A DNA stretch of 64,000 nucleotides from Fibrobacter intestinalis (GCF_900167415.1 NZ_FUWU01000001.1:1-64000), one strand, 5' to 3'. Positions 10,806 to 26,991 are shown, numbered from the stretch's first letter. Notes: generated by a model from the sequence alone, not told the origin. Numbers and translations: made by a program.

Positions 10806-12137
10806 ATGGCAGATCGTATCGTTTGCAAATTCGGCGGCAGCTCTGTTGCAGAAGCCAAGCAGTTTCAAAAAGTCAAAGCGATTGTAGAGGCGGATAAACG
10901 GCGTAAAGTCGTTGTCGTTTCAGCTCCCGGAAAACGGAATCCTCAGGAAACGAAGCTTACCGATCTTTTGTACACGACTTACGACCTCGCTTCCAAAAAT
11001 CTGGATTTTTCCGTTCCGTGGAAAATGATTTGCGACCGTTATATTGATATAGCGAAAGATCTTCATCTGGCAACAAAAATCGGAGAAGATTTGTCGGCTT
11101 TGGAAAATCAATTAAAAAATGAATTTGAAACCGTAACGACGGATTTTTTGGTTTCCCGCGGGGAATATCTTTGCGCCCGTTTAATGGCGGAATATCTGAA
11201 CGCGCAATTTGTGGATTCTTTTGAATTGATCGCGTTTGATGAACGCTACCGCATTACATCGAATAGTTATGAAACGATTGCGCAAAAATTGTCCGATGAA
11301 AATCAGCTCTATGTGGTTCCCGGCTTTTACGGCGAAGGTCCCAGAAAACAGGTCAAGACCTTTTCTCGCGGAGGCTCCGATATTTCGGGAGCGATTCTTG
11401 CAAATGGAATCCATGCCGTTGCGTATGAAAATTGGACGGATGTTTCGGGAATGCTGATGACGGACCCGCGAATCGTTAAAAATCCGCAACCCATTAGCTA
11501 TGTCAGCTATCGTGAAATTCGAGAACTTTCCTATTCGGGAGCAAGCGTTCTGCACGACGAATCCATAGCACCGTGCCGCGCCAAAAACATTCCGATTAAT
11601 ATCCGCAACACCAATCGCCCGGAAGACGCCGGAACGATTATCGGGCCGACTCCGGAAAAAACGGATTTTCCGATTACGGGAATCGCAGGGCGTAAAGGCT
11701 TTTCGATGATTTATATCGAAAAGAGCATGATGAACAAGGAAGTCGGTTTTGGACGGCGCGTTCTTGCCATTCTTGAAGGCGAAGGTCTTTCTTACGAACT
11801 CAGTCCCAGCGGCATCGACTCCATGTCCATCGTCGTGGATTCCAAAGCTTTGGAAGCGGTACAGGACGCCGTTCTAGAAGACATCATGCTGCAAATGCAC
11901 CCGGATAGGGTCAAAGTTTTCCACGGGATCAGCCTTGTGGCGACTGTCGGACACGGCATGACAAACCAGATAGGAATTGCCGCCAAACTTTTCTCTGCTC
12001 TTGCCGAAAAGAAAATCAACATCCGCATTATTGATCAAGGTTCCTCGCAAATAAATATCTTGGTTGGCGTCGATGATTCCAATATGGAAAATGCCATTCA
12101 AGCAATTTATGGAGCTTTTGTTAAATCCCATGTTTGA
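10806..12137 (+). CDS. lysC: aspartate kinase (monofunctional, ACT-regulated)
   Basis: The 443-residue enzyme phosphorylates aspartate, the first step toward lysine, threonine, methionine and diaminopimelate. The amino-acid-kinase domain opens with KFGGSS at residues 8-13 and has VVVVSAPGK, the FSRGGSDISGAI block and WTDVSGMLMTDPRIV. The C-terminal third carries two ACT domains (one around VGFGRRVLAILEGEGLSYE, one around ATVGHGMTNQIGIAAKLFSALAEKKINI), implying allosteric feedback. The start has AAAAGGA at good distance. The last eight bases overlap the start of the ape methyltransferase gene, so the two are probably co-transcribed and translationally coupled, an unusual link between amino-acid and pigment genes. 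Confidence 0.95.
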   Translation: MADRIVCKFGGSSVAEAKQFQKVKAIVEADKRRKVVVVSAPGKRNPQETKLTDLLYTTYDLASKNLDFSVPWKMICDRYIDIAKDLHLATKIGEDLSALENQLKNEFETVTTDFLVSRGEYLCARLMAEYLNAQFVDSFELIAFDERYRITSNSYETIAQKLSDENQLYVVPGFYGEGPRKQVKTFSRGGSDISGAILANGIHAVAYENWTDVSGMLMTDPRIVKNPQPISYVSYREIRELSYSGASVLHDESIAPCRAKNIPINIRNTNRPEDAGTIIGPTPEKTDFPITGIAGRKGFSMIYIEKSMMNKEVGFGRRVLAILEGEGLSYELSPSGIDSMSIVVDSKALEAVQDAVLEDIMLQMHPDRVKVFHGISLVATVGHGMTNQIGIAAKLFSALAEKKINIRIIDQGSSQINILVGVDDSNMENAIQAIYGAFVKSHV

Positions 12138-13218
12138 TTCTTTTTATCAAGACGACATTGACGCGGTAAATGCCAAATTTGAAGCGCAAAAAATCGCATT
12201 CGCCCCCCTTTCTTTTCAAGCCGCTCGCGCTCTGCGAGATTTGGGAATTTTAGAACTTGTCAGCAGCTCTCGTAAAAAAGGAATCGCTATTCGTCAAATT
12301 GCAGAACAGCTGAAACTTTCCGAATATGGTGTTGGCGTCTTAATGGAAATGGGACTTGGCATGGGAATTTTCAAATTGAAAAGATCGGAATCCTCAGAGC
12401 TGATTTTTACTCTTGGGAAAATCGGATTTTTCCTTTTGAATGACGACATGACCAAAGTGAACATGGATTTTTCGGAAGACGTTTGCTATCAAGGCGCCGA
12501 TGATTTGATGAAATCCGTTATGACGGGGAAACCCGAAGGATTAAAACGTTTTGGTCCTTGGACAACTGTATATGAAGGCCTTTCACAAACCAGCGAAGTT
12601 TTTCAAAAAAGTTGGTTCGGTTTTGATCATTTTTATTCGGACTTGGCATTTCCCGAAGCTTTGCCGATAGTTTTTGAACAAAAGGTAAAACATCTTTTTG
12701 ATATAGGCGGCAATACGGCAAAATGGGCAATCCAATGCTGCAAATACAATCCGGATGTGAATGTTTCCATTATTGATTTGCCTGGTCAAACCGCTGTTGC
12801 CGAGAAAAATGCGAAAGCTGCTGGATTTGAAAATCGCATTACAACGATTCCTTGCAACGTCCTTGACGAATCCACCAAATTTCCGCATGGTGCCGACGCC
12901 ATTTGGATGAGCCAATTTTTGGATTGTTTTTCCCTGCACCAGATTACAAAAATTCTGAAAAAAATCTACCCGGCGATAACTTCGGATACAAACGTTTATA
13001 TTTTGGAACCGATTTGGGACAAGCAGCGATTTGAAGCCGCTTCTTATTCTTTACAAGCGACATCTCTTTATTTTACTTGCATTGCCAACGGAAACAGCAA
13101 AATGTATCGCTTTGACGAATTGAAGCAAGCCGTTGAAAATGGCGGATTTGTTCTTCGGGAAGCGCATCATAATTTGGGAATCAACAGTTACACTCTTTTC
13201 CGTTTTCAAAAAAAATGA
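12130..13218 (+). CDS. apeB: SAM-dependent O-methyltransferase of the aryl-polyene cluster (ApeB-like)
   Basis: The protein has about 362 residues from the ATG at 12130, which overlaps the lysC stop. An N-terminal winged-helix/dimerisation part (RQIAEQLKLSEYGVGVLMEMG) precedes a Rossmann methyltransferase domain. Its SAM loop reads FDIGGN and the acidic strand-two residue lies in SIIDLPGQ, as in O-methyltransferase family 2. In characterised aryl-polyene clusters a methyltransferase decorates the terminal phenol ring. It overlaps the next gene by four bases (ATGA). Assignment to ApeB rests on family and on the neighbours apeC and apeD. Confidence 0.85.
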   Translation: MFDSFYQDDIDAVNAKFEAQKIAFAPLSFQAARALRDLGILELVSSSRKKGIAIRQIAEQLKLSEYGVGVLMEMGLGMGIFKLKRSESSELIFTLGKIGFFLLNDDMTKVNMDFSEDVCYQGADDLMKSVMTGKPEGLKRFGPWTTVYEGLSQTSEVFQKSWFGFDHFYSDLAFPEALPIVFEQKVKHLFDIGGNTAKWAIQCCKYNPDVNVSIIDLPGQTAVAEKNAKAAGFENRITTIPCNVLDESTKFPHGADAIWMSQFLDCFSLHQITKILKKIYPAITSDTNVYILEPIWDKQRFEAASYSLQATSLYFTCIANGNSKMYRFDELKQAVENGGFVLREAHHNLGINSYTLFRFQKK

Positions 13219-13817
13219 ATGTATATGTAACCCGGTTTTCTGCATGGACGGATGAGCACCCGCCAAAATTAAATTTCGTTCCGATGCTATTTCGGCGGAG
13301 ACTTAGCGACATTACTAAAATGGTTGTACAAACGGTTCATGACGTTTCCGAGGGGCTTTCGCATACGCATGTAACTTTCGCTTCGGAATTTGGAGAAATC
13401 CAGCGGCAGTATAAAATTTCGGAAGGCATTTTATCTTCCGGAGAAGTTTCCCCGGCGCAATTCAGCCTTTCGGTTTTCAACATCCCTGCATCGGCCTCTT
13501 CTATTGTAGAGCAAAACATGGTCGGTTACAGTGCCGTTTTTTCTGGGAATAAATCTTTTGAAAATGGGTTGAAAGAAGCGGTGGCGCCAATTCTTTCCGG
13601 TCGGGAAAAAGAACGGATTTTTGTATTTGCCGATGAACGAATCCCTGCGGAGTACGCTACCATTGCAAAATATCCGAATCCTGTTTGCGCTCTGGCTTTA
13701 CGCCTGTCGAGTAAAAAAACGAACGCCATTTGTGAACTGGATTATTCCTCGCTACCCGCAACGGAAACCGCAGCAGAACAAGCTCTTTATTTTTTGAACA
13801 ATAGACTTCCACAATGA
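13215..13817 (+). CDS. apeC: beta-ketoacyl-synthase N-terminal-like protein, chain-length-factor partner (ApeC-like)
   Basis: The 200-residue protein looks like a truncated ketosynthase N-terminal domain: a DITKMVVQTVHD helix, a TFASEFGEI strand, and the diagnostic S-P-A-Q-F-S-L-S-V-F-N segment, then a QNMVGYSAVFSGN strand. The Cys-His-His catalytic set is missing. In aryl-polyene clusters such a protein (ApeC) pairs with the ketosynthase ApeO as a chain-length factor. It overlaps both neighbours in ATGA fashion, so three genes plus lysC form one coupled operon. It is much shorter than a full ketosynthase, which is normal for this family. Confidence 0.8.
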   Translation: MNVYVTRFSAWTDEHPPKLNFVPMLFRRRLSDITKMVVQTVHDVSEGLSHTHVTFASEFGEIQRQYKISEGILSSGEVSPAQFSLSVFNIPASASSIVEQNMVGYSAVFSGNKSFENGLKEAVAPILSGREKERIFVFADERIPAEYATIAKYPNPVCALALRLSSKKTNAICELDYSSLPATETAAEQALYFLNNRLPQ

Positions 13818-14608
13818 AGTTCCTGCAAAAAATTTTGTATGTCTGGCGTTTAATTGCTAAGGTTATTGCATACGCTTCGTTCGGAATTTGCAGCACTATT
13901 TTCACTTTGACTTTTCCCTTCATTTTTATTTTTTCCGGTTTTTCCAAAAAACGTTTTCGAATGTTGGCGAGGGCGGTGAATTTCCGATTTTTTCAACTCT
14001 TCGTTTTAGAAATGAAACTGCTGGGAATTTTAACCGTTCATGTTGAGCACAAGGAACGTTTTCAAAATTTTCGCCCTTGCGTTATTGTGGCCAACCATCC
14101 TTCTTTTTTGGATGTCGTCATCCTATTTTCCATTATTCCCAACGCCAATTGCATTGTCAAAGGTTCTCTTGCAAAAACGCCTTTTGTGAACACCGTTGTC
14201 AGCGCACTTTTTATTCCCAATACGCTCCCTTTTGAAGAACAGTTGGAACGGGCAAGAATTGGCATGAACGAAGGGGAATCTCTGATTATTTTTCCGGAGG
14301 GGACGCGTACAAAATCGGGAGAACCTTTGCATTTTAAAAAGGGAGCAGCACGTTTTGCGATTCATTCCGGAAGATGCGCCCTGCCTATTTACATCGGCGG
14401 AAATGAAAAAATCGGCATTCGGAAGAACGATGCGTTTTTCCGTTTTCACCCTTCAGAACGATACCATTATAATCTGGATTTGCTTCTTCCTATTTTTCCC
14501 GGAAAATTTGAAGAGCATTCGAAACCAGCTGCGGTGGAATTGCTGACAAAAGAAATGCAAAACGTTTTGGAACTTTGTAGAAATCGAGATCCCGAAAAAG
14601 AAACGTGA
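13814..14608 (+). CDS. apeD: 1-acylglycerol-3-phosphate-type acyltransferase (ApeD-like)
   Basis: The 264-residue PlsC-superfamily protein has an N-terminal membrane segment (about residues 12-40). The catalytic NHPSFLD motif (N-H-x4-D) comes next, followed by the FPEGTRTKSGE motif and a hydrophobic PIYIGG strand. Such enzymes transfer acyl groups to glycerol-phosphate-like acceptors at the inner membrane. In aryl-polyene systems acyltransferases are thought to attach the polyene to a lipid anchor. It is the last gene of the plus-strand operon and faces apeR across a 36-base junction. Confidence 0.85.
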   Translation: MKFLQKILYVWRLIAKVIAYASFGICSTIFTLTFPFIFIFSGFSKKRFRMLARAVNFRFFQLFVLEMKLLGILTVHVEHKERFQNFRPCVIVANHPSFLDVVILFSIIPNANCIVKGSLAKTPFVNTVVSALFIPNTLPFEEQLERARIGMNEGESLIIFPEGTRTKSGEPLHFKKGAARFAIHSGRCALPIYIGGNEKIGIRKNDAFFRFHPSERYHYNLDLLLPIFPGKFEEHSKPAAVELLTKEMQNVLELCRNRDPEKET

Positions 14609-14644
14609 AGAATAAAAAGAAAGGCTGTCTCTTTCGTGCGCGCA

Positions 14645-15871
14645 CTACATTCTTTTGAAAATCAAAGAGGTGTTGATTCCTCCGAAAGCGAAGTTGTTCG
14701 ACATAAAATATTCAATATCCATTTCTCTCCCGTCGCCCATGATATAATCTAAAGGCGCACACGCTGGATCGATATTTTTCAGATTCAAATTTGGATGGAA
14801 CCATTTTCGATTCATCATTTGAATGCCGAGCCAAGCTTCAATAGCACCACAGGCCCCTAAAGAATGGCCGATGTAACTTTTTAAACTGCTAATAGGAGCG
14901 GCCCTTCCTTGCAAGGCCCCAAAAGTCGCTTGAGTTTCTGCGGTGTCGCCGAATTTGGTCGCCGTGCCGTGTCCGCTAACGTAGCCGATTTGCTGCGGAT
15001 AAACGCCCGCATTTTTCATCGCCATTTCCAATGCGATTTGCATCGTTTCTTTTTTGGGCTGCGTTAGATGATTGCCGTCCGTGTTGGTTCCGAAACCGAC
15101 AACTTCCGCATAGATATGCGCGCCGCGAGCTTTAGCGTGCTCGTATTCTTCAAGAATTAAAGAGCCTGCGCCCTCGCCGATGACAAGACCGTCCCGATCT
15201 CTGTCATAAGAAGCCGGCGTGATTTCTGGAGAGTCGTTTTTAACACTTGTCGCAAATAGAATATCAAAAACAGCAGAACCCGTCGGATTTAATTCTTCGG
15301 CTCCGCCAGCAATCATAACATCCTGTTCACCGTGCATAATCATTTCATAGGCGTATCCGATAGAAAGGCTTCCCGCCGTGCAAGCGGTATTTGTCGTAAC
15401 AAGACGTCCGGTAAGTCCCAAAAGAACGCTGATATTGACCGCGCAAGTTTGCGGCATACAGCGAATGTAACTGGTTGCCGTAATGTTCGACGAATCGTTA
15501 TGGATAAGCATGGACATAAATTCTTTGATAGCGTCAAAATTTCCCATGGAAGATCCGAATGAAACGCCGATACGTCCAGCTTTAAGTTCCGGATCATTCA
15601 GATCGTAACCCGCAAGGAGCAAAGCTTTTTCCGCAGTGGCTACTGCCATGTGAGCAACGCGCCCCATCCCCCGCATTTTCTTTCGAGGAAATTCCGGAAG
15701 AGAAAATGGAATGGGAGCGGCCAATCGTGTATTGATTTGTTTGTAAACATCCCAGCCAGGCATTCGAATCGTGCAATTTTTCAGCAAATGGAGCCGTTCA
15801 AAAATTTCATCGTCATCCATTCCGAGCGGAGAAATGCTTGCCCCACCTGTAACCACAACTCGACGTTTCAT
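14645..15871 (-). CDS. apeR: beta-ketoacyl-ACP synthase (ApeR-like)
   Basis: The 408-residue thiolase-fold enzyme has the full elongating-ketosynthase set: C164 in NTACTAGS, H301 in SGHGTATKFGD, K331 and H336 in KSYIGHSLGACGA. IGEGAGSLILEE and the C-terminal NNFAFGGINTS are also typical of FabF-type enzymes. It condenses malonyl-ACP with the growing polyene or its starter. It is the last gene of the minus-strand ape operon and overlaps apeQ by four bases. The ApeR label rests on its position after an apeO-apeP-apeQ run, the order seen in gammaproteobacterial ape clusters. Confidence 0.9.
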   Translation of the reverse strand: MKRRVVVTGGASISPLGMDDDEIFERLHLLKNCTIRMPGWDVYKQINTRLAAPIPFSLPEFPRKKMRGMGRVAHMAVATAEKALLLAGYDLNDPELKAGRIGVSFGSSMGNFDAIKEFMSMLIHNDSSNITATSYIRCMPQTCAVNISVLLGLTGRLVTTNTACTAGSLSIGYAYEMIMHGEQDVMIAGGAEELNPTGSAVFDILFATSVKNDSPEITPASYDRDRDGLVIGEGAGSLILEEYEHAKARGAHIYAEVVGFGTNTDGNHLTQPKKETMQIALEMAMKNAGVYPQQIGYVSGHGTATKFGDTAETQATFGALQGRAAPISSLKSYIGHSLGACGAIEAWLGIQMMNRKWFHPNLNLKNIDPACAPLDYIMGDGREMDIEYFMSNNFAFGGINTSLIFKRM

Positions 15872-16587
15872 GCCAAACCTCCATTTACAGAAATGACTTG
15901 CCGTGTAATATAGGAAGCTCCTTCCGAAAGCAAAAAGAGAACTGTTGCAGCAACTTCTTCCGGTTTGCCAACACGGTGCATGGGAATGGCTGGCAAAATC
16001 ATATCAACCGGGGCATCTTTAATCATTTCGGTTTCAATAACTCCAGGAGCAATGCTATTTACGGTGATATTTCGACTAGCCAATTCAACGGCTAAAGCTT
16101 TGCTGGCAGCGATAATTCCGCCTTTGCTTGCACTGTAATTGACTTGTCCTCGATTTCCAATAACTCCAGAAACCGAAGCAATGGAAATAATTCGTCCTTG
16201 TCTTTTCCGACACATCGGCATGACCAGCGGATGCAAGACATTGTAAAAGCCGTTCAAATTCACGTTGAGGACGCTGTCCCAATAATCGTCGGTCATGGCG
16301 GGGAATGCGGCATCTCGGCAAATACCCGAAGAAAGAACAACTCCGTAATACGTTCCTTTTTCGGCAACATCTTTTTCCAGTACGGATTTACAATTTTCTC
16401 GATCCGTTACATTAAATTGCAGAAGATGCAAATTTTCTTTATTTTGTTCGGCGAGATTTTTTAAAGAATCCGCATGGCTGTTGTAATGCGCCGTAACCTG
16501 ATAGCCTGCTGACAACGCAGCCTGTACAATGGCAAAACCAATGCCGCCACTGGCTCCCGTCACAAGAACGCGTTTTCCGTTTTCCAT
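15868..16587 (-). CDS. apeQ: 3-oxoacyl-ACP reductase (ApeQ-like, FabG family)
   Basis: The 239-residue short-chain dehydrogenase has the cofactor motif TGASGGIG at 10-17, a catalytic Ser in SIASVSG (about 138), Y151 and K155 in YSASKGG, and the NTVNSIAPG-like segment NITVNSIAPGVIET. It reduces the beta-keto group after each condensation. The C-terminal QVISVNGGLA is standard for FabG. It overlaps apeR and directly abuts apeP. Confidence 0.93.
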   Translation of the reverse strand: MENGKRVLVTGASGGIGFAIVQAALSAGYQVTAHYNSHADSLKNLAEQNKENLHLLQFNVTDRENCKSVLEKDVAEKGTYYGVVLSSGICRDAAFPAMTDDYWDSVLNVNLNGFYNVLHPLVMPMCRKRQGRIISIASVSGVIGNRGQVNYSASKGGIIAASKALAVELASRNITVNSIAPGVIETEMIKDAPVDMILPAIPMHRVGKPEEVAATVLFLLSEGASYITRQVISVNGGLA

Positions 16588-17049
16588 TTATATTCCTCCC
16601 ATTTTTTGCGGATTGTCCACGGCAATCGTATTGATTGTAGCCGTTGCAAATAATTTATCACCGACAGACGCTTTTCCTTCAAATGTAATCGCTTTGTCCA
16701 TTTGCGCAATTTGCTTTATCCAAATACGTACGACGGATTTGGCAAGAAATACGTTTTCTTCCGCTTTAAAATTTGTCACGCTTAAAATGAAGCCAACTTG
16801 AGACGAATTTTTTTCTCTATTGGCAATACCATTCAATGCGGCTATACTTTGCGCCATATATTCAAAAGCAATCCATACAGGAACGCCGCCAAAATTTTCG
16901 TCGTAAAACATTGTCTTTTCGGAAATATCCACTTCCGTCTCAGCAACCGCTTGCGACAAATCGTAAAAAACGACTCGATCGAGCAAATTCATTTTTCCTT
17001 TATGCGGCACTAATTGCGCTATTTTTTCTCGAGAATCAAATTCGGTCAT
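16588..17049 (-). CDS. apeP: 3-hydroxyacyl-ACP dehydratase, hotdog fold (ApeP-like)
   Basis: From the ATG at 17049 the protein is 153 residues. It starts with LVPHKGKMNLLDRVV, the hotdog dehydratase N terminus, then V-P-V-W-I-A-F-E-Y-M-A-Q-S-I-A-A-L-N-G as the central hotdog helix. ApeP works with a partner dehydratase (ApeI) to make the trans double bonds of the polyene. Here the ApeI-like domain is fused into the protein at 23864-26158. The start overlaps the apeO stop by four bases; longer in-frame starts lie inside apeO and are less likely. Confidence 0.85.
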   Translation of the reverse strand: MTEFDSREKIAQLVPHKGKMNLLDRVVFYDLSQAVAETEVDISEKTMFYDENFGGVPVWIAFEYMAQSIAALNGIANREKNSSQVGFILSVTNFKAEENVFLAKSVVRIWIKQIAQMDKAITFEGKASVGDKLFATATINTIAVDNPQKMGGI

Positions 17050-18227
17050 GCGTTCCTCGCCAAAACCAAAGATACATTGCAACCGCCAAAACCAAAAGAG
17101 TTGCTCATGCAAATATTGAGTTTTTCGGCACGTTCCCCTAAAGAAACCAGATGAATCTGGGGTATGGACAAATCTCGTTCACCGTCAAAATAATGTACAG
17201 GCAATTCCCGATTCGGATTTTCGTCTGAAAGAGCAAGGCAGCAAAATGCCGCTTCCAGCGCTCCCGATGCGCCTAAAGTGTGACCGGTCAATCCCTTGGT
17301 AGAACTCGATTTCGTATTATCACCGAAAACACGATGAACTGCAACGCTTTCCATAGCATCGTTTAGTTTTGTTCCCGTCCCATGCAAATTGATATAATCC
17401 ACATCTTTTGCTGAAATTTGAGCGTCTTTCAACGCTTTTAGAATAGCTTGCACGGCGCCTTCGCCATCGGCTCTTGGGGCAGTAACATGATCCGCGTCGG
17501 AACTTTCGCCCATGCCGAGAATTTGAAATGGAGACGAATTCGCTTCCCGAGAGACCAAGAAAAAAGCAGCGGCGTCACCAATGGTAAGTCCAGAGCGATT
17601 CCTGCTGAACGGAATAGATGGCGTTGCGGAAACCGCTTCTAAAGAATCAAATCCAAGAACAACGGTTTGCGTTTGAATATCCACCCCGCCGACAATTGCG
17701 GCATCACAAAAGCCCGCTTCAATCCAATTTCTGGCGGAAACAAATGCACTTGCACTGGAAGCGCAAGCGGACGAATGGGTAAATATCGGGCCTGTAATCC
17801 CAAACCGTTTGGCCACATATTCTGCGGCAAAATCAGCCTGTTGTTTTTTCAATAAATAACCGTCTGGGTATTTTCCATTACTTTGAAAAAATGCTAAAGC
17901 GGAAAGGGACGATTCGGAGCCGTTATCGCTGGAACCGAGGAATACGCCAATTCGATGCGCTCCCCATTTCTGAATCCATTCGGCAACGGAACTTTCCAAA
18001 GAAACCAATGCTTTTTCAGAAAGTCGATTGACGTGATTATCGTAGAAAGAATCCGCCGTATGAGGAAGTTTGCTTTGCGGGATTTCTGCGACATAGCGTT
18101 TTTTTCCGCAGTATTCTTTTTGGATAAATTGCGGGGGTATTCCGTTTTTCAAAGCGTCCCAAATAGACTTTTTGTCCGCTCCCAAAGCACAAACGGCGGC
18201 AAAATCTTTGATGTAAAGAGGATTCAT
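17046..18227 (-). CDS. apeO: beta-ketoacyl-ACP synthase (ApeO-like)
   Basis: The 393-residue ketosynthase keeps all catalytic residues: C155 in SSACASSAS, H282 in NLHGTGTKLND, K311 and H316 in KGLTGHTLGASGA. The C terminus (NSFGFGGCNVSLVL) is standard. By position between the DUF3261-like lipoprotein gene and the dehydratase it corresponds to ApeO, the elongating ketosynthase that pairs with ApeC. The two proteins would come from different, convergent operons here. It overlaps both neighbours by four bases. Confidence 0.9.
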   Translation of the reverse strand: MNPLYIKDFAAVCALGADKKSIWDALKNGIPPQFIQKEYCGKKRYVAEIPQSKLPHTADSFYDNHVNRLSEKALVSLESSVAEWIQKWGAHRIGVFLGSSDNGSESSLSALAFFQSNGKYPDGYLLKKQQADFAAEYVAKRFGITGPIFTHSSACASSASAFVSARNWIEAGFCDAAIVGGVDIQTQTVVLGFDSLEAVSATPSIPFSRNRSGLTIGDAAAFFLVSREANSSPFQILGMGESSDADHVTAPRADGEGAVQAILKALKDAQISAKDVDYINLHGTGTKLNDAMESVAVHRVFGDNTKSSSTKGLTGHTLGASGALEAAFCCLALSDENPNRELPVHYFDGERDLSIPQIHLVSLGERAEKLNICMSNSFGFGGCNVSLVLARNA

Positions 18228-18856
18228 GGATTTCTTTCCTCCTGATTTTCGGATTCGATTTGATAACGATAATTTCGAATTTTATTTTCAAATCGGATTC
18301 TCCCTTTGGATTTTTCCATAACAAGAATTTCCGATTTTCCGTCAGATAGCGATCGCCGCAAACTTGAGCCTTCTTGCGATTCTCTAAAATGCAGACCTGC
18401 TTTTTGAAAATTTTCAGAAAGAATTTTGGCAGGATAGTAGCAAAATTGAACGTCAGCTATTACATATTCGGCTTTGACTTTATCGGAATCTATCCAGCGG
18501 CTGTTAAAAAAGACGGAATCTTGTGTATAAATTAATTCTGCAATAACATTTCCCATGGAACTGAAAAGCATTACATGAATGAGGGAATCATTCAATAGCA
18601 TCCAAGAATTTCCCGAAAATTTCTTATCGCCATAAGAACCGGTCATCTGCTGATTTTCTTCTATGGATATATTTGAAAATTTTGGAAGAATCAAATGGGC
18701 AAAGTGCGAATCGGAATAATAAATTTTTGTCGCCAAATGCGCAGAACGAGTCGTGCAGGAAATGAGTCCGCATACCACAAAAAGAAGAGCACAGCAGAAA
18801 ATAGTTCGCCATAAACGCATCAGATAAAAACTTAAAAAATTGTTGGCCGATGGCAA
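18224..18856 (-). CDS. apeN: outer-membrane lipoprotein of the APE cluster (DUF3261/ApeN-like)
   Basis: The 210-residue protein has a hydrophobic signal segment ending in a lipobox L-I-S-C. Its body has short strands with Trp and Tyr, such as GNSWMLLNDSLIHVMLFSS, resembling the DUF3261 lipoproteins of ape clusters that probably act with the LolA-like carrier. The start is uncertain. The TTG at 18856 has GAGGAAA upstream overlapping the apeM stop; an ATG 12 codons later (18820) lacks a ribosome site. Both keep the lipobox. Confidence 0.7.
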   Translation of the reverse strand: MPSANNFLSFYLMRLWRTIFCCALLFVVCGLISCTTRSAHLATKIYYSDSHFAHLILPKFSNISIEENQQMTGSYGDKKFSGNSWMLLNDSLIHVMLFSSMGNVIAELIYTQDSVFFNSRWIDSDKVKAEYVIADVQFCYYPAKILSENFQKAGLHFRESQEGSSLRRSLSDGKSEILVMEKSKGRIRFENKIRNYRYQIESENQEERNP

Positions 18857-18859
18857 TTG

Positions 18860-21154
18860 CTATTTCCTCGCAAAAGGAGAAAGGCACAAGCTTGCGGAAA
18901 TGCCGAGTAATACGGTAAGCCCCAAAATAGACACGGGCGCAAAGCTGCTTAAGGCAAGGGTTCCAAAAGAAATCAATGTCGTCAGCGTCGATAAAATCAC
19001 AGCAAATGCCGTTGAATTTAAATCATCGCCAGCTTCTTTGAAAAAAAGCGAATAGTCAATGCCAATGCCTAAAACGAGAATCAGTCCTGTGATAGCAAAG
19101 AAATTAACGGGAATCTCCATATAGCCAAACATCGACATGGTAAATAGGCAAGCTAGTATCGGTGCCCGTACAATTCGTAGAGAATCTTTCCAGGTATAGA
19201 CGAATGACAGAATAAAAAATACAGAAAAATAGGCAAAAGCGACTAGAGCTAAAGCCGTCATGGAAAGTTCTGTTAAAGCGTGATTCACCGTTTCCATTTT
19301 ATTGACCGCATAAATTCCCTCGTCAGGACTGGCAAATGAGTCTGCACAAAATTCTTTTGTTGCATGCAAAGGCAAAACCGCACTGTAATAAGAACTATCC
19401 AATTGGCCAATCCACAACATATCTCGGAAATTTTCAAATTGTTGCGGCAGTTGTTTTTCTAAATCGGTTTGAATAGCAGGATATTCCAGCTGTTGCCTTT
19501 TGGGAATTTTCATTGCTTTTTTCAAAGCGGCATAACGAATGGGAAGGGAACGCCGCAAAGCGGAATCCAGTTGCCGTTGGCGATGAGCTGACGGAGCGAA
19601 ATCGGAAAAAGCTAAAACCGATTCGATAAGAGAATCTTTTTGCGCGGTCCAAAGGCGTTCTTTTAGATTCTCTTCTTTCTGTAAAACGTCTTCAATAGAA
19701 TTGCCTCGCACGATAAAATAATGCGGAGAAATTCCCGAGTTCATCCACTTCGCTATTTTGATTTCACTTTTTTCTAAATCCGGAGCAATTTTGTATAACG
19801 TGCGAAGATCTGTTTGCAGATTTAGTTTAAAAAATCCAGGAAGCAGGAGTCCTAAAAGAACTGCGAAAACAATATAACGTACCTTTCGAGGAATGGATTC
19901 CGCTTTAGAATATCCCTTTAAAGCGAGTTGAATTATTACAGGAGGATTTTGATTTCGCTTTTCTAGTTTCCGAGAAATAATGGGGAATATTAGAAGAACG
20001 GAAAGCAAGGCACTTGCCAAGCCGACCATTGAAAAAAATGCCATCTGCCGAAGTACGGGAAAGTTCACGATCATCAAAGCGATGTAACTCAGTTCCGTTG
20101 TCATAAATCCGAGTAGAATACTTTTGATTTGAAAGTTCCTATCGGCAAAATGATGCAGCGCGTAATCGATGCTCACTCCGATAACGCTTGTGCCAAAGAC
20201 AAAAGTGAAAATATGAATTTCATGGAATGTCGCCAAAGTCGCACCAATTGCCGCAAGAATGGCTACGACAATTGAAACTAAAATGGAAAGAATCGGAAGA
20301 GGAGAGCGGAAGGCTAAAAGAAGCAACAGCAGCACCGCAACCCCAGAAATACCAGAAATCCAAGCGACTTCTCTTTGGGCTTTTTGGGAACTGGAGTAGC
20401 TATGAAATGGAACCCCTGAACATTCAAATGATAGGTTCGGGTGAGCCTTTTGCAACAGAGCCATTTTATCTTCTAGCAGAGAAATAATGTGTCCGTCGGA
20501 CGCCATATCCGAGGCATTCTGAAGCATTTTTGCGTTTACAAGTACATAAGTTTTTCCTGAATCTTCGACAGTCAGCATTCCTTCACGCAACGAGAGATTT
20601 CCGGAAAGTAAAGGATTTTTAAAAAGAAGCCGTTCCTGCGCATTTTGAGACAATAAATAGGGATCTTCTTGCAGGTGGCTCAGTGAACTTGTAGGAAGAG
20701 CTCCGAAGGTTCGGGAAAGCGCCCGATGATACAGATAATTTGCTCGAGCGGAATCGCTCATTTGCAGCAAAGACGGGTCTTGCAAGGCAAAACGATTTTT
20801 ATAAAAGAATTCTGAGAGTTCTCCTAGAGAATTGCTGTCGATGAGCCACGTAGCCGATTCGATCTGTTGGCTTTCCGAAAGCATTTTCCCGATTTCATTT
20901 GCTGCAGCCTTGGCTACGGAAAAATCAGAATCGCCGACAAACAGGAGCAGCTGCGTCGCTGAACGCGAAGAAAATTCCGATTCTGCGTTTTGAAACTCTT
21001 GGCTTATATCGGATTTTGGCAATACGGAATACAAGCTCTTATCAATTTTCCAAGGATATGCCAAGACAACAGCAACAATCAAAGCGATGTGTAAAATCGC
21101 CCACAGGCCGATATGAAAAATTTGTTTCTTACTTTGCGGAATTTCTGAATTCAT
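18860..21154 (-). CDS. apeM: MMPL/RND-family lipid exporter (ApeM-like)
   Basis: The 764-residue membrane protein has the RND layout: one N-terminal membrane helix, a roughly 220-residue periplasmic loop, a group of five helices including GTSVIGVSIDYALHHF, a second large loop and a final group with VLGIGIDYSLFFKEAG. The two IDY(A/S)L motifs carry the proton-relay Asp typical of MMPL proteins such as those exporting mycobacterial lipids. It is expected to move the finished aryl-polyene lipid out of the inner membrane. It overlaps apeL by 26 bases and lies four bases from apeN. Confidence 0.88.
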   Translation of the reverse strand: MNSEIPQSKKQIFHIGLWAILHIALIVAVVLAYPWKIDKSLYSVLPKSDISQEFQNAESEFSSRSATQLLLFVGDSDFSVAKAAANEIGKMLSESQQIESATWLIDSNSLGELSEFFYKNRFALQDPSLLQMSDSARANYLYHRALSRTFGALPTSSLSHLQEDPYLLSQNAQERLLFKNPLLSGNLSLREGMLTVEDSGKTYVLVNAKMLQNASDMASDGHIISLLEDKMALLQKAHPNLSFECSGVPFHSYSSSQKAQREVAWISGISGVAVLLLLLLAFRSPLPILSILVSIVVAILAAIGATLATFHEIHIFTFVFGTSVIGVSIDYALHHFADRNFQIKSILLGFMTTELSYIALMIVNFPVLRQMAFFSMVGLASALLSVLLIFPIISRKLEKRNQNPPVIIQLALKGYSKAESIPRKVRYIVFAVLLGLLLPGFFKLNLQTDLRTLYKIAPDLEKSEIKIAKWMNSGISPHYFIVRGNSIEDVLQKEENLKERLWTAQKDSLIESVLAFSDFAPSAHRQRQLDSALRRSLPIRYAALKKAMKIPKRQQLEYPAIQTDLEKQLPQQFENFRDMLWIGQLDSSYYSAVLPLHATKEFCADSFASPDEGIYAVNKMETVNHALTELSMTALALVAFAYFSVFFILSFVYTWKDSLRIVRAPILACLFTMSMFGYMEIPVNFFAITGLILVLGIGIDYSLFFKEAGDDLNSTAFAVILSTLTTLISFGTLALSSFAPVSILGLTVLLGISASLCLSPFARK

Positions 21155-21725
21155 AGCTTAAAATATTTCCTTCTCCATCAAGCATTTCTACTTTTTCAAG
21201 ATTCTTTTGACCTTCCAACAAAATGGAAGCCAGCGCTTTTTGAATCATTTTTTCTTTGGGGCGCAAGCCGATTATCCATTTTTTCTTTTGAGTGACAAAA
21301 TAAATATCGAATTTTTGCTGAAGCGATTCTAAATTGCCATTAAAAATCGCTTGAACGGATGCTGCGATTTCGCGAAAAACTGCATTATTCGCCGCATTCA
21401 TTTCCACAGAGGTGCCGTCCGGAAAAACCTGGATCATTTTTTCTTTGGAGATTTCAGAACGTGACGCAAAGGGTTTTTCGACATTCAAAATAATGCCGTT
21501 TTTGCCAGAAATTAAAAAAGTGCCCGAAGATTCAAAGACGCGTTGAATTTTTTGTACAATCCGTTTTTGAATAAAGGAACCTTCTTGTTTTTTTACAGAA
21601 GAAAGAGTTTGTACAATTTCCGCAAATGCGGGCGAGTTAAAATCGGCAGGAGAATCCCATAAAGAATCTTTTGCAAAAAGAATTCCACTCCAAAAAAGAA
21701 AAATCGTGAAATATATTTTAACCAT
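21129..21725 (-). CDS. apeL: LolA-like outer-membrane carrier protein (ApeL-like)
   Basis: From the ATG at 21725 the protein is 198 residues with a Sec signal peptide ending near LFAKD. The mature part follows the LolA pattern: an early helix, a GSFIQKRI strand, a G-T-F-L-I-S-G-K-N-G-I-I strand, an exposed-Trp/Phe region and a repeated beta half-barrel. LolA-type proteins carry lipidated cargo across the periplasm; this cluster-linked form probably carries the polyene lipid from the exporter. The chosen ATG follows GAGAATGAAA and overlaps the thioesterase stop. Confidence 0.82.
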   Translation of the reverse strand: MVKIYFTIFLFWSGILFAKDSLWDSPADFNSPAFAEIVQTLSSVKKQEGSFIQKRIVQKIQRVFESSGTFLISGKNGIILNVEKPFASRSEISKEKMIQVFPDGTSVEMNAANNAVFREIAASVQAIFNGNLESLQQKFDIYFVTQKKKWIIGLRPKEKMIQKALASILLEGQKNLEKVEMLDGEGNILSYEFRNSAK

Positions 21726-22155
21726 TTTCATTCTCGGCGAGATATTTTTCAATTCGCTCTACAAAATCGCGCGGAGAACCAATCATGGATTCATGCGTTT
21801 TAAGATTTACCGCCATTTGAGTACTTTCCGCTTTGGTGATGACTTTGCCAGTTTCTACATCCATGAAACGATAGCGGATTTTTAAGCAAACGTCGTATTC
21901 GACAAGGGTCGCTTCTATGCGGACCTTTTGCATAAAACGAAGCGGTCGAATGTATTTGATATGCAGCTGCACAACGGGCCAAACATAACCCGCTTTTTCC
22001 ATTTCAAAATAATCATAATGGATTTTATCCAAAAGAGCGCAACGCGCTGTTTCCATATATTTTACATAATTGCCGTGCCAAGCGACATTCATCGGATCCA
22101 AATCGTAAAATTGAATCTGTATTTCGGCACTTGCTGTGATTGTTCTGGAGTTCAC
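21718..22155 (-). CDS. apeK: acyl thioesterase, hotdog fold (ApeK-like)
   Basis: The 145-residue 4HBT-type protein has the signature F-Y-D-L-D-P-M-N-V-A-W-H-G-N-Y-V-K-Y, with the catalytic Asp in YDLD. It would release or proofread acyl-ACP or aryl thioesters in the aryl-polyene pathway. A GTG at 22155 overlaps the upstream stop as GTGA and has AAGGAG seven bases upstream. That makes it more likely than the ATG at 22176, which would place its own ribosome site inside the reading frame. Confidence 0.85.
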   Translation of the reverse strand: MNSRTITASAEIQIQFYDLDPMNVAWHGNYVKYMETARCALLDKIHYDYFEMEKAGYVWPVVQLHIKYIRPLRFMQKVRIEATLVEYDVCLKIRYRFMDVETGKVITKAESTQMAVNLKTHESMIGSPRDFVERIEKYLAENENG

Positions 22156-23114
22156 GACAATTCTCCTTTTGACCAAAAATTGTAAAAATTATACCACTGA
22201 TATGGATGCTGCAAACAGAAGCGTTCTAGATGCGAAGTAAATTCGGCAGCCAATTCCGCGATTTTCTTTTTTTGTTCCGAACGCTTTCCCGTCCAAGTTA
22301 CGGACGAATGAATAACGTGAAATTCATAGGGCGACGTGATATCTAAATCTTTTTTACGAAAAGCAAAAATAAAGTACACGGGAGCTTTTAAAACACAGGC
22401 AAGAGTGAATGCGCCTTCGGGAAATGCTGCGTTTTCTCCTAAAAACGGCAAGGAAATTTGGCGTTTTTCAAAATGAGACGACGTTCTGTCCCCGGCAATA
22501 GCTATCAGATTTCCTGAAACGATTTTTTCATGCATAGCGATTACGGAATCGGGGCCGATTGTATTGGCATCAAAAGCGTTCTTCATCAACGATGGATTTA
22601 ATTTGTGCAGAATCGTATTGAACTTTCGGGTTCCCGAAAAATCAACAACAGGGAAAACCTGAAAAATGCGATGGGTATGTTCTTTGCGAAATCCCGTCAA
22701 GGAACGTATAGCCTCAATGTTTCCCAAATGCGAACACAAAACAAATGCGCCTTCTCCAGAATCCAAAGATTCGATAAGTTTATTAACATCATCGTTTTGC
22801 GTTTCCAATTCCGACAAATTTATTTTGCCCGCCCAACCTCGAATTTTTTCCACCATCGACAAAGCAAACGCCAATATGTGACGATACACAGCAAAATGCG
22901 GAACTTTTTGATTTCGCATGGCAAATACGTGTTCCAAGTAAAGGCGAGAACGTTTTCGGACGGGAGATGCTCCCAAATAAAAAAAGAAGACGATGACTGC
23001 GGCAAAACATTCTATCCATTTCAGAGGCAAGTGAATGGCTGCCCAAAGCATAAACTGAAACTTCCATTCGGCATTCTCCGTTTCCTTTATTTGAAACCAA
23101 TGTTCGTTTGCCAT
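22152..23114 (-). CDS. lysophospholipid acyltransferase of the LpxL/HtrB type (part of ApeJ function)
   Basis: The 320-residue protein has the LpxL/HtrB family layout: an N-terminal membrane anchor, the catalytic CSHLGNIEA motif (H-x4-E), an I-A-G-D-R block and a LPFLGENAAFPEGAF substrate segment. It probably acylates the carbohydrate or glycerol part of the aryl-polyene lipid. In E. coli ape clusters a glycosyltransferase and an acyltransferase are joined in ApeJ; here they are two genes separated by three bases. It starts at 23114. Confidence 0.85.
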   Translation of the reverse strand: MANEHWFQIKETENAEWKFQFMLWAAIHLPLKWIECFAAVIVFFFYLGASPVRKRSRLYLEHVFAMRNQKVPHFAVYRHILAFALSMVEKIRGWAGKINLSELETQNDDVNKLIESLDSGEGAFVLCSHLGNIEAIRSLTGFRKEHTHRIFQVFPVVDFSGTRKFNTILHKLNPSLMKNAFDANTIGPDSVIAMHEKIVSGNLIAIAGDRTSSHFEKRQISLPFLGENAAFPEGAFTLACVLKAPVYFIFAFRKKDLDITSPYEFHVIHSSVTWTGKRSEQKKKIAELAAEFTSHLERFCLQHPYQWYNFYNFWSKGELS

Positions 23115-23117
23115 TAT

Positions 23118-23864
23118 TTACTTTTTGCCTCTTGCACTTTTGCGCTTTAGTAATTTAGGCAATCGGAGAAGCATTCCAAAACAAAGTCGTGTATGTAAGC
23201 GGGAAATTTCTACGTTGTCTCGCCACATTCGAAAATTGGATACGCCGTCTTTGGGATAAATTACTTGGATGGGATAAAAATACATACGGACTCCCGCCCA
23301 AGAAAGCCGCACCAGAATTTCAATATCAAAACCCATTCGGAATGTTTGAATCTGCTTCAAAATCGGTTCGGTGAGCCAAAGCGGGTACACGCGAAAGCCG
23401 CACATGGCGTCGGGAACAGCAAAAGAAAGCGTCTCTATCGACACCCAAAAATTCGTGATTTTACGACCGATTTTTCGCCCTTTGGGAGCAGAATCGTCAT
23501 ATTGAGGGAAACCGCCGACAAGACAATCCAAATGCTTTTGAGAAGCTTTTAAAAAGAACGGAATGGCTTCGGGATTATGTTGCCCATCGGCGTCGATTTG
23601 CAATGCGTGAGAATATCCGGTACGATAAGCTTCTCGAAGCCCGGCACAAACAGCGGCTCCTTTGCCTCCGTTTTTCGCAAGCGATATCAAGGAAATTCGA
23701 GAATCGCTTTGGGCGATTTTTTGTAGTATCTGCAATTCTTCAGCGGAATTTCCGTCATCCACCAAAATAATGGGAAGATTCTGCGCCAATAATTTTTGTA
23801 TCACCGGACGCACCGCATCGGTGTGGCGAAAGATGGGTATCACAGCGCAAGGTTTGAATTCCAT
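23118..23864 (-). CDS. family 2 glycosyltransferase (part of ApeJ function)
   Basis: The 248-residue protein is a GT-A fold transferase. V-D-D-G-N at 35-39 and the metal-binding DADGQHNPEA at 91-100 match dolichol-phosphate-mannose-synthase-like GT2 enzymes. GGKGAAVCAGL (66-76) is also typical. A hydrophobic C-terminal region ends in a Lys/Arg-rich tail. It likely glycosylates the lipid carrier of the aryl-polyene. Its ATG shares an A with the stop of the fused gene upstream (TAATG). Confidence 0.88.
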   Translation of the reverse strand: MEFKPCAVIPIFRHTDAVRPVIQKLLAQNLPIILVDDGNSAEELQILQKIAQSDSRISLISLAKNGGKGAAVCAGLREAYRTGYSHALQIDADGQHNPEAIPFFLKASQKHLDCLVGGFPQYDDSAPKGRKIGRKITNFWVSIETLSFAVPDAMCGFRVYPLWLTEPILKQIQTFRMGFDIEILVRLSWAGVRMYFYPIQVIYPKDGVSNFRMWRDNVEISRLHTRLCFGMLLRLPKLLKRKSARGKK

Positions 23865-26158
23865 TATGGAGCCTTTTTCAAAAGAATCGATCCCGAAGCG
23901 TGAACCGTTTCTCCATTGGCGATCCGAAATGACATCTTTCCCAATTCCGGAGAATACGATTCTTCAAAAGTAATAGGTGTATCTGGGAGAATAGGACTTG
24001 TAAATTTCGTTCGAGAAATGCGATCTATTTCGCTGGGCAGTTGGAAAAACGCGCGAAAAAATCGCAACGCCAAATCGATTTGAACGACTGCAGGCAATAA
24101 TTTGAAATGAGGAAAATGCCCATCATAATAATCGCTTGTATTTGGCACGACAATTTTAACCGCCAGCCGATTACCGTTTTGAAAGAAACGGAGTATTTTG
24201 AAATTCGGGTCTTCTGGCAAAGCGAACAGCTTTTGAATGTCGCGCGTTTTCACTTTTCCCATCACATCTTGCGGCAATTCTTCCAAGTAGCGCCACTTTT
24301 TGGGAGTCACCGTATTCTCTAGGAAATTGGACAGGTAATTGCGAAAATAGGCATTGATTTCTTTTTTGGGCGTTTCCGCAAACTTTAACGTTCCCGTTTC
24401 GTTTAAAACCAGAGCAGCTGCCAGAAATTGACGCTTTCCCGCCATCGGAACAACTCGCACATCTCGGACCAACTTGGTTTCGCGCAAACGGTTTTCCACC
24501 TCCAAAAGCGATATGCGCTTTTCTTCAATTTTCACAATGGAATCCGCTCTGCCGAGCAGCGAGAAAGTTCCGTCCGATTCTATTTTTCCCAAATCGCCTG
24601 TAACAAACCCTTCTGGCTCCGTATAGGAAGAAAGTATTTTCAAACGTCCATCCTCTTCCAGCGTGATTTGATTTGTCGGAATCGGTGTCCATAAAGGAGT
24701 AATTTGAATGCGGCGAGTCGCTATGGCACCGGCTTCTGTGCAACCATAAATTTCTTGCACTCCATTTCCCGAAAGCTCTTCGACTTGATGGGCGACTTCA
24801 TCGGGAAGCACTCCGCCCGCCGACAGCCAAAACGGTTTTTTCTTAAAGGCCAGCTTGGTTCGATTGGCAACCAAACGTTTTAAAAATGCGGGACTTGCCA
24901 CAATTACTGCGGGATCTGCTAAAATTTGTTCCAGCTCTTCGGGAAATTCAAATCGCGTTTGACGAATAGGAAGTCCTGCGGAAAACGGAACAAAAACCGA
25001 GAAAGCGAGTCCGTAAATATGATGGTGATTTACCGTCGAATAAAAGTTACAATGAGAAAAAGAGGACGCAAATCTGCCAGCGAGAGCATCGGCTTCATTT
25101 TCAAATTGAGCTGCGGTTTTTGGAATTTCTTTAGGAACGCCCGTCGTGCCAGAAGTATAGAGTGCCGCCTGCGCTTTTTGCGCATTAAAGGTTTGCCAAG
25201 GAATTTGAGCGGAAAACCGTTCCAGCACTTGCGGGATTTGCAAAGAATTTTCTTCGCCGGCATCGTTTAAAAATCCGACATTCGGCTTCCGAATTTCTCG
25301 AATAAATTCCTTCTGCCGATTAGCCGTAAACAAAATTTTCTTTTGACTTTGAAAAAGCGCAAAGATAGCAACGAGTAGGTGGTAGGTATCTTCAACATTT
25401 AAAATCCAAGAATCGTAAGATTCCTGTGAAATGGCACCTCGCAATTTGGAAACGTCTTCTTTGAACATCTTCCATGTTTTGCATACAGATGACAGGCCGG
25501 AACCGCGAAAGCACACGACAGAATCGTCCGGTCGAGAATTCGCCTGTATTTGGGAGAACGAGATGTAAGATTGCAATGAGCCTTGTTTCATTTTTCGCAC
25601 TCCATATTCTACGGCAAAAAGGATTCCCATCAAAATATAGGAAATAAAACCGTTATAAAGAGCCCACCATTTTTCATCGGAGGCAAGAACGGTCCAAAGG
25701 GCGATGGCTCCGTTTATGCAAAAAAAAATACACCAGACGATGGTGACTTTTTGACAATAACGCTCTATGGGAATTCGGTCAGCAATACGGAGAATTCGCT
25801 TGTCCGCAAAAGTCGCCAGTCGAAATACGAGATTCGTTTTAGAAAAAAGAGTTGCTCCAAAAAGACAAAGCATCCCGCTATTTACCAAGACGGGATAGAA
25901 TAGAAGAAATTTTGCATTGTCTAAAGAAAACGTCAATATCCCACATAACAACAGAATGGTGGTGAAACCGATTTCTTTTACAGGAATGCTTGGATGTTTG
26001 TGCTGAGCAAATAAAAAAATACGAAGAGCCACTAAAAGCAGCAATAGCAATGCCAGTTTACGCGGGGAAAATTCCCCAAAACGGAGAGCGCAAAAAATGA
26101 GCACAGGATAAAGAACCAATACGATGGCGAAAAATATCCTGCCGACAAAGAAGTTCAT
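23864..26158 (-). CDS. fused membrane protein, AMP-dependent ligase and hotdog dehydratase (ApeG-ApeH-ApeI)
   Basis: The 764-residue protein joins three functions. Residues 1-192 are a membrane domain with about six to eight helices, like the COG4648 proteins found in ape clusters (ApeG). Residues about 200-625 are an adenylate-forming ligase: TSGTTGVPK at 335-343, EIYGCTEAG, the GDLGK region and a C-terminal lysine region (MGKVKTRD); it would load an aryl acid onto an ACP (ApeH). Residues about 630-764 are a hotdog dehydratase with YYDGHFPHFKLLPAVVQ, H681 being the likely catalytic His (ApeI). In E. coli ape these are separate genes. It shares TAATG overlaps with both neighbours. Confidence 0.85.
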   Translation of the reverse strand: MNFFVGRIFFAIVLVLYPVLIFCALRFGEFSPRKLALLLLLLVALRIFLFAQHKHPSIPVKEIGFTTILLLCGILTFSLDNAKFLLFYPVLVNSGMLCLFGATLFSKTNLVFRLATFADKRILRIADRIPIERYCQKVTIVWCIFFCINGAIALWTVLASDEKWWALYNGFISYILMGILFAVEYGVRKMKQGSLQSYISFSQIQANSRPDDSVVCFRGSGLSSVCKTWKMFKEDVSKLRGAISQESYDSWILNVEDTYHLLVAIFALFQSQKKILFTANRQKEFIREIRKPNVGFLNDAGEENSLQIPQVLERFSAQIPWQTFNAQKAQAALYTSGTTGVPKEIPKTAAQFENEADALAGRFASSFSHCNFYSTVNHHHIYGLAFSVFVPFSAGLPIRQTRFEFPEELEQILADPAVIVASPAFLKRLVANRTKLAFKKKPFWLSAGGVLPDEVAHQVEELSGNGVQEIYGCTEAGAIATRRIQITPLWTPIPTNQITLEEDGRLKILSSYTEPEGFVTGDLGKIESDGTFSLLGRADSIVKIEEKRISLLEVENRLRETKLVRDVRVVPMAGKRQFLAAALVLNETGTLKFAETPKKEINAYFRNYLSNFLENTVTPKKWRYLEELPQDVMGKVKTRDIQKLFALPEDPNFKILRFFQNGNRLAVKIVVPNTSDYYDGHFPHFKLLPAVVQIDLALRFFRAFFQLPSEIDRISRTKFTSPILPDTPITFEESYSPELGKMSFRIANGETVHASGSILLKKAP

Positions 26159-26415
26159 TACTTGTCTTTTGTTTCTTGCGTCAATTCGTAAACGCCATCG
26201 ACAACATCTTGTAGAGTGCGCATTTGCTTGAACACTTCGGGATCTACATTTCTGGGAATATATTGTTTCAGTTTAACAATCAAATCCACGGCATCGATGC
26301 TGTCGAGATTCAGGTCTTCATAAAGGCGAGCTTCCGGAACGACTTTCGCAGCGTCCATTTCAAAATCATTTACTAAAGCGTTGCGAATTTTTTCGTAAAT
26401 CTGCTGTTTGTCCAT
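26158..26415 (-). CDS. apeF: acyl carrier protein (ApeF-like)
   Basis: The 85-residue protein carries the phosphopantetheine site D-L-N-L-D-S-I-D-A-V with Ser39, inside a typical four-helix ACP with acidic helix two. The ATG at 26415 has AAGGA upstream; longer frames run into the other ACP gene. It holds the aryl starter or elongating polyene as a thioester. It is one of two ACPs, as in all aryl-polyene clusters. Confidence 0.9.
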   Translation of the reverse strand: MDKQQIYEKIRNALVNDFEMDAAKVVPEARLYEDLNLDSIDAVDLIVKLKQYIPRNVDPEVFKQMRTLQDVVDGVYELTQETKDK

Positions 26416-26419
26416 AACA

Positions 26420-26695
26420 TCAATCCTTTTTATTTGCCGAAATGTAGGAAGCAAGCGCATTGATCGACGCAAAATGCCGACGGGTTTCTTCATTCACCGT
26501 AGAAAAGGTAACACCGAAATTATCTTTAATGGCGATGCCCAGTTCCAGCGCGTCAATGCTGTCGAGTCCAAGCCCCTTTCCCTCTTTATTCAATCCAAAG
26601 AGCGGAGCGTCGTCATCAATGTCTTGAGGAGTTATATCTTCTAACTCCAACGACTTGATGAGCACTTCTTTTATCTGCATATTTAATTCAGACAT
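26420..26695 (-). CDS. apeE: acyl carrier protein (ApeE-like), first gene of the minus ape operon
   Basis: The 91-residue ACP has Ser46 in GLGLDSIDALELG and an insertion before it (DAPLFGLNKEGKG) that is common in polyene-type ACPs. GGAGA lies just before the ATG. It is four bases from apeF and opens a run of about 12 tightly packed genes down to 14645. The upstream 320-base region presumably holds the operon promoter. Confidence 0.9.
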   Translation of the reverse strand: MSELNMQIKEVLIKSLELEDITPQDIDDDAPLFGLNKEGKGLGLDSIDALELGIAIKDNFGVTFSTVNEETRRHFASINALASYISANKKD

Positions 26696-26960: not shown

Positions 26961-26991
26961 AAAAAAACGTTCAGAATATAAATTCTGAACG
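26961..26991 (-). terminator. lysA intrinsic terminator
   Basis: A perfect ten-base stem (26968-26977 with 26982-26991, loop of four) is followed on the minus strand by seven T. It lies 25 bases after the lysA stop and separates the lysA transcript from the ape operon. Confidence 0.9.

Follow-up and report, generated by a model that had tools for sequence, protein, structure and literature searches.

A genuine aryl-polyene cluster in the Fibrobacteraceae, ordinary in layout and unusual in its lack of a recognized starter enzyme

Aryl polyenes, which give protection from oxidative stress, are pigments found very widely among bacteria. Our main point of comparison is the ape cluster of Escherichia coli CFT073 (APEEc, c1186-c1204), which has been proven experimentally (PMC8253772). 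In that cluster, apeA through apeR lie on a single strand, apeG, apeH and apeI are separate genes, apeJ is one gene and apeA is present (Table 1, PMC8253772). ApeA is dispensable in E. coli (PMC8253772), and the starter 4-hydroxybenzoate is supplied by UbiC. The xanthomonadin pathway also begins with a hydroxybenzoate, which is made there by XanB2 (PMC3949708).

We analyzed a window of 64,000 nucleotides (G+C 44.8%) from a draft genome of the family that contains Fibrobacter (G000; 3.29 Mb, 116 contigs, 99.95% complete). The named clusters nearest to it carry the label Fibrobacter, but the G+C value is the one published for Hallerella porci (PMC7738495), and the genus is tentatively taken to be Hallerella. 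The window holds an ape cluster between lysC and lysA, with apeB, apeC and apeD on the plus strand and apeE, F, GHI, J1, J2, K, L, M, N, O, P, Q and R on the minus strand. A preliminary description had placed fifteen genes at 12130-26695. Those limits are exact, with apeB starting at 12130 and apeE at 26695, but we count 16 ORFs, all intact, because J is two genes and G-H-I is a single 764-aa gene. Functions B to R of CFT073 are all found in G000. The E-to-R order had been likened to that of gammaproteobacterial clusters, and it is indeed identical to CFT073 except for the fused G-H-I and the split J. In both clusters ApeC is encoded far from ApeO and there is no lyase gene. Unlike CFT073, G000 lacks apeA in its cluster and UbiC in its genome.

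Gene content and proposed pathway

Gene identities were assigned from Pfam and NCBIfam profile searches, supplemented by a PDB search for ApeO, ApeC and ApeR. The plus-strand genes directly follow lysC (10806..12137, also plus strand; aspartokinase, PF00696 plus ACT domains), whose stop overlaps the apeB ATG at 12130 by 8 nt; read-through from lysC into apeBCD is possible. apeB (12130..13218; PF21212 and PF00891) codes for a FlxJ-like protein with a SAM-dependent O-methyltransferase fold. Its best NCBIfam model is the flexirubin-type FlxJ methyltransferase, at 462 bits and thus under the cut-off of 560. apeC (13215..13817; PF13723, 132 bits) overlaps apeB and apeD by 4 nt each and codes for a half-size ketosynthase chain-length factor. 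Its sole PDB matches are the ApeC chains 6QSP_B and 7F28_A, and it retains the RR motif (R28 R29), an arginine pair proposed for ACP docking. apeD (13814..14608; PF01553) codes for a PlsC-type lysophospholipid acyltransferase.

The minus-strand genes begin, in coordinate order, with apeR (14645..15871), a FabB-like homodimeric ketosynthase that scores over the NF006587 cut-off and has 7F27 as its top PDB match (6e-144). C164, H301 and H336 are present, and Y135 and F202 are invariant in the alignment. In ApeR of Acinetobacter, Tyr135 and Phe202 are the residues on which the aryl group stacks (PMC8358021). apeQ (15868..16587; PF13561/PF00106, FabG models) codes for an SDR ketoreductase, and apeP (16588..17049) codes for a hot-dog dehydratase (PF22817 ApeP-like, 47 bits against a cut-off of 27). 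apeO (17046..18227) codes for the elongating ketosynthase that partners ApeC; its top PDB matches are the ApeO chains 6QSP_A (1.9e-79) and 7F28_B, and the catalytic Cys and both His align. The transport genes are apeN (18224..18820), for a DUF3261 LolB-like lipoprotein (PF11659) with the lipobox LISC in its translation, apeM (18860..21154; PF03176), for an MMPL/RND exporter, and apeL (21129..21731; PF03548), for a LolA-like carrier. They are followed by apeK (21718..22176; PF13279), for a 4HBT thioesterase, and by apeJ2 (22152..23114; PF03279) and apeJ1 (23118..23864; PF00535), for an LpxL-type acyltransferase and a GT2 glycosyltransferase that correspond to the C-terminal and N-terminal halves of E. 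coli ApeJ, respectively. The apeGHI fusion (23864..26158) joins a membrane domain with a weakly IspA-like N-terminus, an aryl-ACP ligase over the PF00501 cut-off, and an ApeI-like hot-dog dehydratase domain that scores 24 bits with PF22818, below the cut-off of 28.5, and keeps the GHFP motif. Two acyl carrier proteins, ApeF (26158..26418; PF00550, NF003757 over cut-off) and ApeE (26420..26695; PF00550), complete the set. A predicted minus-strand terminator (26968..26991; a 10-pair stem followed by TTTTTTT, a consensus match only) separates the apeE-R operon from lysA (27016-28278, minus strand).

Every function named in the preliminary description is therefore present, and its assignment to aryl-polyene lipids is right. 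The cluster contains a heterodimeric KS-CLF pair (ApeO-ApeC) with a half-size CLF, a second ketosynthase (ApeR) with the aryl-stacking residues, two ACPs, a ketoreductase, two dehydratases (one recognized below the Pfam cut-off), an aryl-ACP ligase, a LolA/MMPL/DUF3261 transport set, and acyl- and glycosyltransferases. A source of the starter acid is a need of the pathway that lies outside the core definition of aryl-polyene clusters, and we found none (UbiC, chorismatase or ammonia-lyase) in G000. Judged from these sequence features, the locus is very probably a functional aryl-polyene lipid cluster, in a genome with no recognized enzyme for making its aromatic starter.

We considered two related pigment classes. 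A flexirubin cluster was rejected, as PF00221 is missing from the genome and no dialkylresorcinol gene occurs among the 16 cluster ORFs. A xanthomonadin cluster was likewise rejected: TIGR04444 is absent from the genome and the cluster has no halogenase domain. Compared with both systems, the G000 cluster lacks dialkylresorcinol genes, a halogenase, a XanB2-type chorismatase and a tyrosine lyase.

By homology to characterized clusters, we infer the following steps and an outer-membrane location for the product. The ligase domain of GHI would load an aromatic acid onto ApeE or ApeF, and ApeR and ApeO-ApeC would extend the chain by malonyl units. Each unit would be reduced by ApeQ and dehydrated by ApeP and ApeI. 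ApeB would modify the ring, release of the chain may fall to ApeK, and ApeD, ApeJ1 and ApeJ2 would join it to a lipid that ApeL, ApeM and ApeN would move to the outer membrane. The B-C-D and E-R genes would be expressed as separate convergent units. The only PF01648 phosphopantetheinyl transferase match in G000 lies 4.7 kb past the end of the window (G000:C58:68735-68974); this enzyme would have to activate both ApeE and ApeF.

Gene order in relatives

The preliminary description had called the cluster complete but rearranged, with B-C-D on a convergent operon and ApeO and ApeC made from different transcripts. B-C-D does face E-R, and apeO and apeC are on opposite strands. Calling the cluster rearranged overstates the case, since its layout is conserved throughout the genus; calling it complete overstates it too, since starter supply is not covered. 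The arrangement lysC-B-C-D> <R...E occurs at the same place in the five other genomes of the genus (L037-L041), and thus in 6/6. In 4/6 of these genomes (L037-L040), the block of rpe, CBM48 and lysA next to apeE has the opposite orientation to that in the window.

We compared the locus to clusters elsewhere in the family and beyond it. The GHI fusion and the J1/J2 split are found across most of the family. Fibrobacter-type clusters (e.g. L042, L084) share both features and the same E-R order with G000, but their B-C-D genes lie at the E end in divergent orientation, and in most of them an ammonia-lyase gene separates J2 from K. In another genus of the family (L053, L098), B follows R and <D<C is convergent. 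The clusters of Treponema and Spirochaetaceae (L122, L186) resemble that of G000: J-K-L-M-N-O-P-Q-R is followed by convergent <D<C<B, with no lyase gene between J and K. These bacteria belong to another phylum, and their ApeR proteins are 55-62% identical to that of G000. C and O are also on opposite strands in some Alphaproteobacteria and Gastranaerophilales (L135, L158, L162).

Thus, in the family B-C-D is normally not on the E-R strand, and the convergent form is genus-wide. Because separated layouts recur in relatives, expressing ApeO and ApeC from separate transcripts is common and normal. The convergent layout does differ from those of E. coli and Fibrobacter, as would be expected of a misassembly or of a rearrangement that is recent and unique. 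Its identical form in six genomes, one of them a single contig (L039), and its recurrence in Treponema and Spirochaetaceae leave such an explanation with almost no probability; the five further genomes rule out an artefact of assembly.

Other arrangements came to light in this survey. Two opposed arms, with C to J or M facing N/O-P-Q-R, occur in some Alphaproteobacteria, Gastranaerophilales and Methylococcales (L135, L158, L162, L168). Treponema and other Spirochaetes from termite gut, rumen and other hosts frequently have ape-type genes, several with convergent B-C-D (L117-L138, L143, L147, L149-L151, L165, L186). In one Fibrobacter clade (L073, L075, L076, L080, L082, L085), the ape cluster has none of L, M, Q and R, neither between K and N nor after P. 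Separate Fibrobacter contigs (L111, L113) bear the genes <D L M Q R together, which suggests that the ape cluster was divided between two loci.

Ammonia-lyase loss and maintenance of the cluster

Most Fibrobacteraceae clusters contain a PF00221 aromatic ammonia-lyase gene with the ASG (MIO) motif between J2 and K (for example, L042:5847-7382). The site is likewise occupied by a lyase gene in clusters of Vibrio, Aeromonas and Xanthomonadaceae and of distant Fibrobacterota (L054-L056). The gene is therefore likely to be ancestral and appears to have been lost in the genus studied here. PF00221 was found in 44/54 family genomes with an ApeO orthologue when this genus is set aside, in 0/51 family genomes without ApeO, and in 0/6 genomes of the genus, including the single-contig G144. 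apeK directly abuts apeJ2 in G000, and the site occupied by the lyase gene in relatives is cleanly closed. Two Fibrobacter genomes have no lyase gene in the cluster and one PF00221 gene elsewhere (G111:C33:1050-2417; G119:C41:22666-24033).

A tree of GHI, J1, K and O places the lyase losses in several lineages, although their number depends on the tree. The genus groups with a Fibrobacter clade or lies beside it, and further losses map to the G092/G094/G095 clade, G114 and G127. We compared the ligase pocket between lyase-plus and lyase-minus clusters and found many genus-specific changes, some near the A5 motif; this comparison is confounded by phylogeny and lacks an ApeH structure.

The missing lyase gene could signal a decaying cluster whose product is no longer made. 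All ORFs are intact, however, catalytic residues are retained, and the cluster is conserved in 6/6 genomes of the genus. In three sister-genome pairs, omega was 0.00-0.17 for every ape gene (in one pair, saturated dS prevented an estimate for one gene), comparable with or slightly above the values for lysC and lysA. Every ape gene is under purifying selection in close relatives, and decay is very improbable.

Source of the aromatic starter

We searched G000 for enzymes that might substitute for the lyase. Profile searches of G000 detected no ammonia-lyase (PF00221), UbiC (PF04345), Rv2949c-type chorismate lyase (PF01947) or FkbO/Hyg5-type chorismatase (TIGR04444). G000 is a 116-contig draft, and one absent gene could sit in a gap, though the PF00221 lyase is absent from all six genomes. 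UbiC-type supply was rejected: PF04345 is absent from G000, and two weak matches in sister species proved to be PF01947 proteins.

Within the family, PF01947 occurs in only three genomes, all of this genus: G141 (L108:4116-4673), G143 (L109:4101-4655) and G142, whose copy is cut by a contig end. The encoded protein is a chorismate pyruvate-lyase by profile (97-99 bits) and by PDB match (2NWI, 1.6e-32). In all three genomes the gene is unlinked to ape and lies near a superoxide dismutase gene. The complete genome G144 holds a remnant with two deletions and ~65 codons left (L204:1670-1857), and G000 and G140 show no trace of the gene. Within the genus, then, the ape cluster is retained whether a recognized hydroxybenzoate maker is present, broken or missing.

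These patterns fit two explanations. The starter may be 4-hydroxybenzoate or a cinnamate taken up from the gut, where plant cell-wall phenolics would supply it, and lyase loss would then mark dependence on host diet. In gut Fibrobacteraceae the lyase has been lost several times from clusters that are otherwise kept. G114 and G127 lack it, yet their ligase domains are ~91% identical to those of lyase-carrying neighbours, and in G144 the chorismate lyase is a remnant while the ape genes are still under purifying selection. An unrecognized endogenous enzyme, such as a divergent chorismate lyase or an amino-acid lyase outside the tested profiles, is equally compatible with these observations. The PF01947 lyase of the three sister genomes, encoded far from the cluster, shows that in this genus an unlinked gene can take over the supply, but neither the profiles of four families nor a protein search with the sister-species lyase returned a match in G000. 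Scavenging from gut phenolics is speculative, and we put it at even odds; an endogenous enzyme is about as likely, if slightly less favoured.

The literature we searched takes little note of aryl polyenes across the Fibrobacteraceae, and its matches on a yellow pigment of Fibrobacter concern Ruminococcus flavefaciens. We conclude that the window contains a genuine aryl-polyene cluster whose layout is ordinary for its relatives and whose starter step is unusual in having no recognized enzyme.

Fibrobacteraceae are strict anaerobes of animal guts. We tentatively propose, at somewhat less than an even chance, that the whole genus scavenges an aromatic acid, such as 4-hydroxybenzoate or p-coumarate from plant fibre, to build its outer-membrane pigment, and that the ammonia-lyase of the cluster was lost first, followed in some species by the substitute chorismate lyase. 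The repeated loss of a starter enzyme from an otherwise retained pathway suggests that building blocks are obtained by cross-feeding or from the diet.
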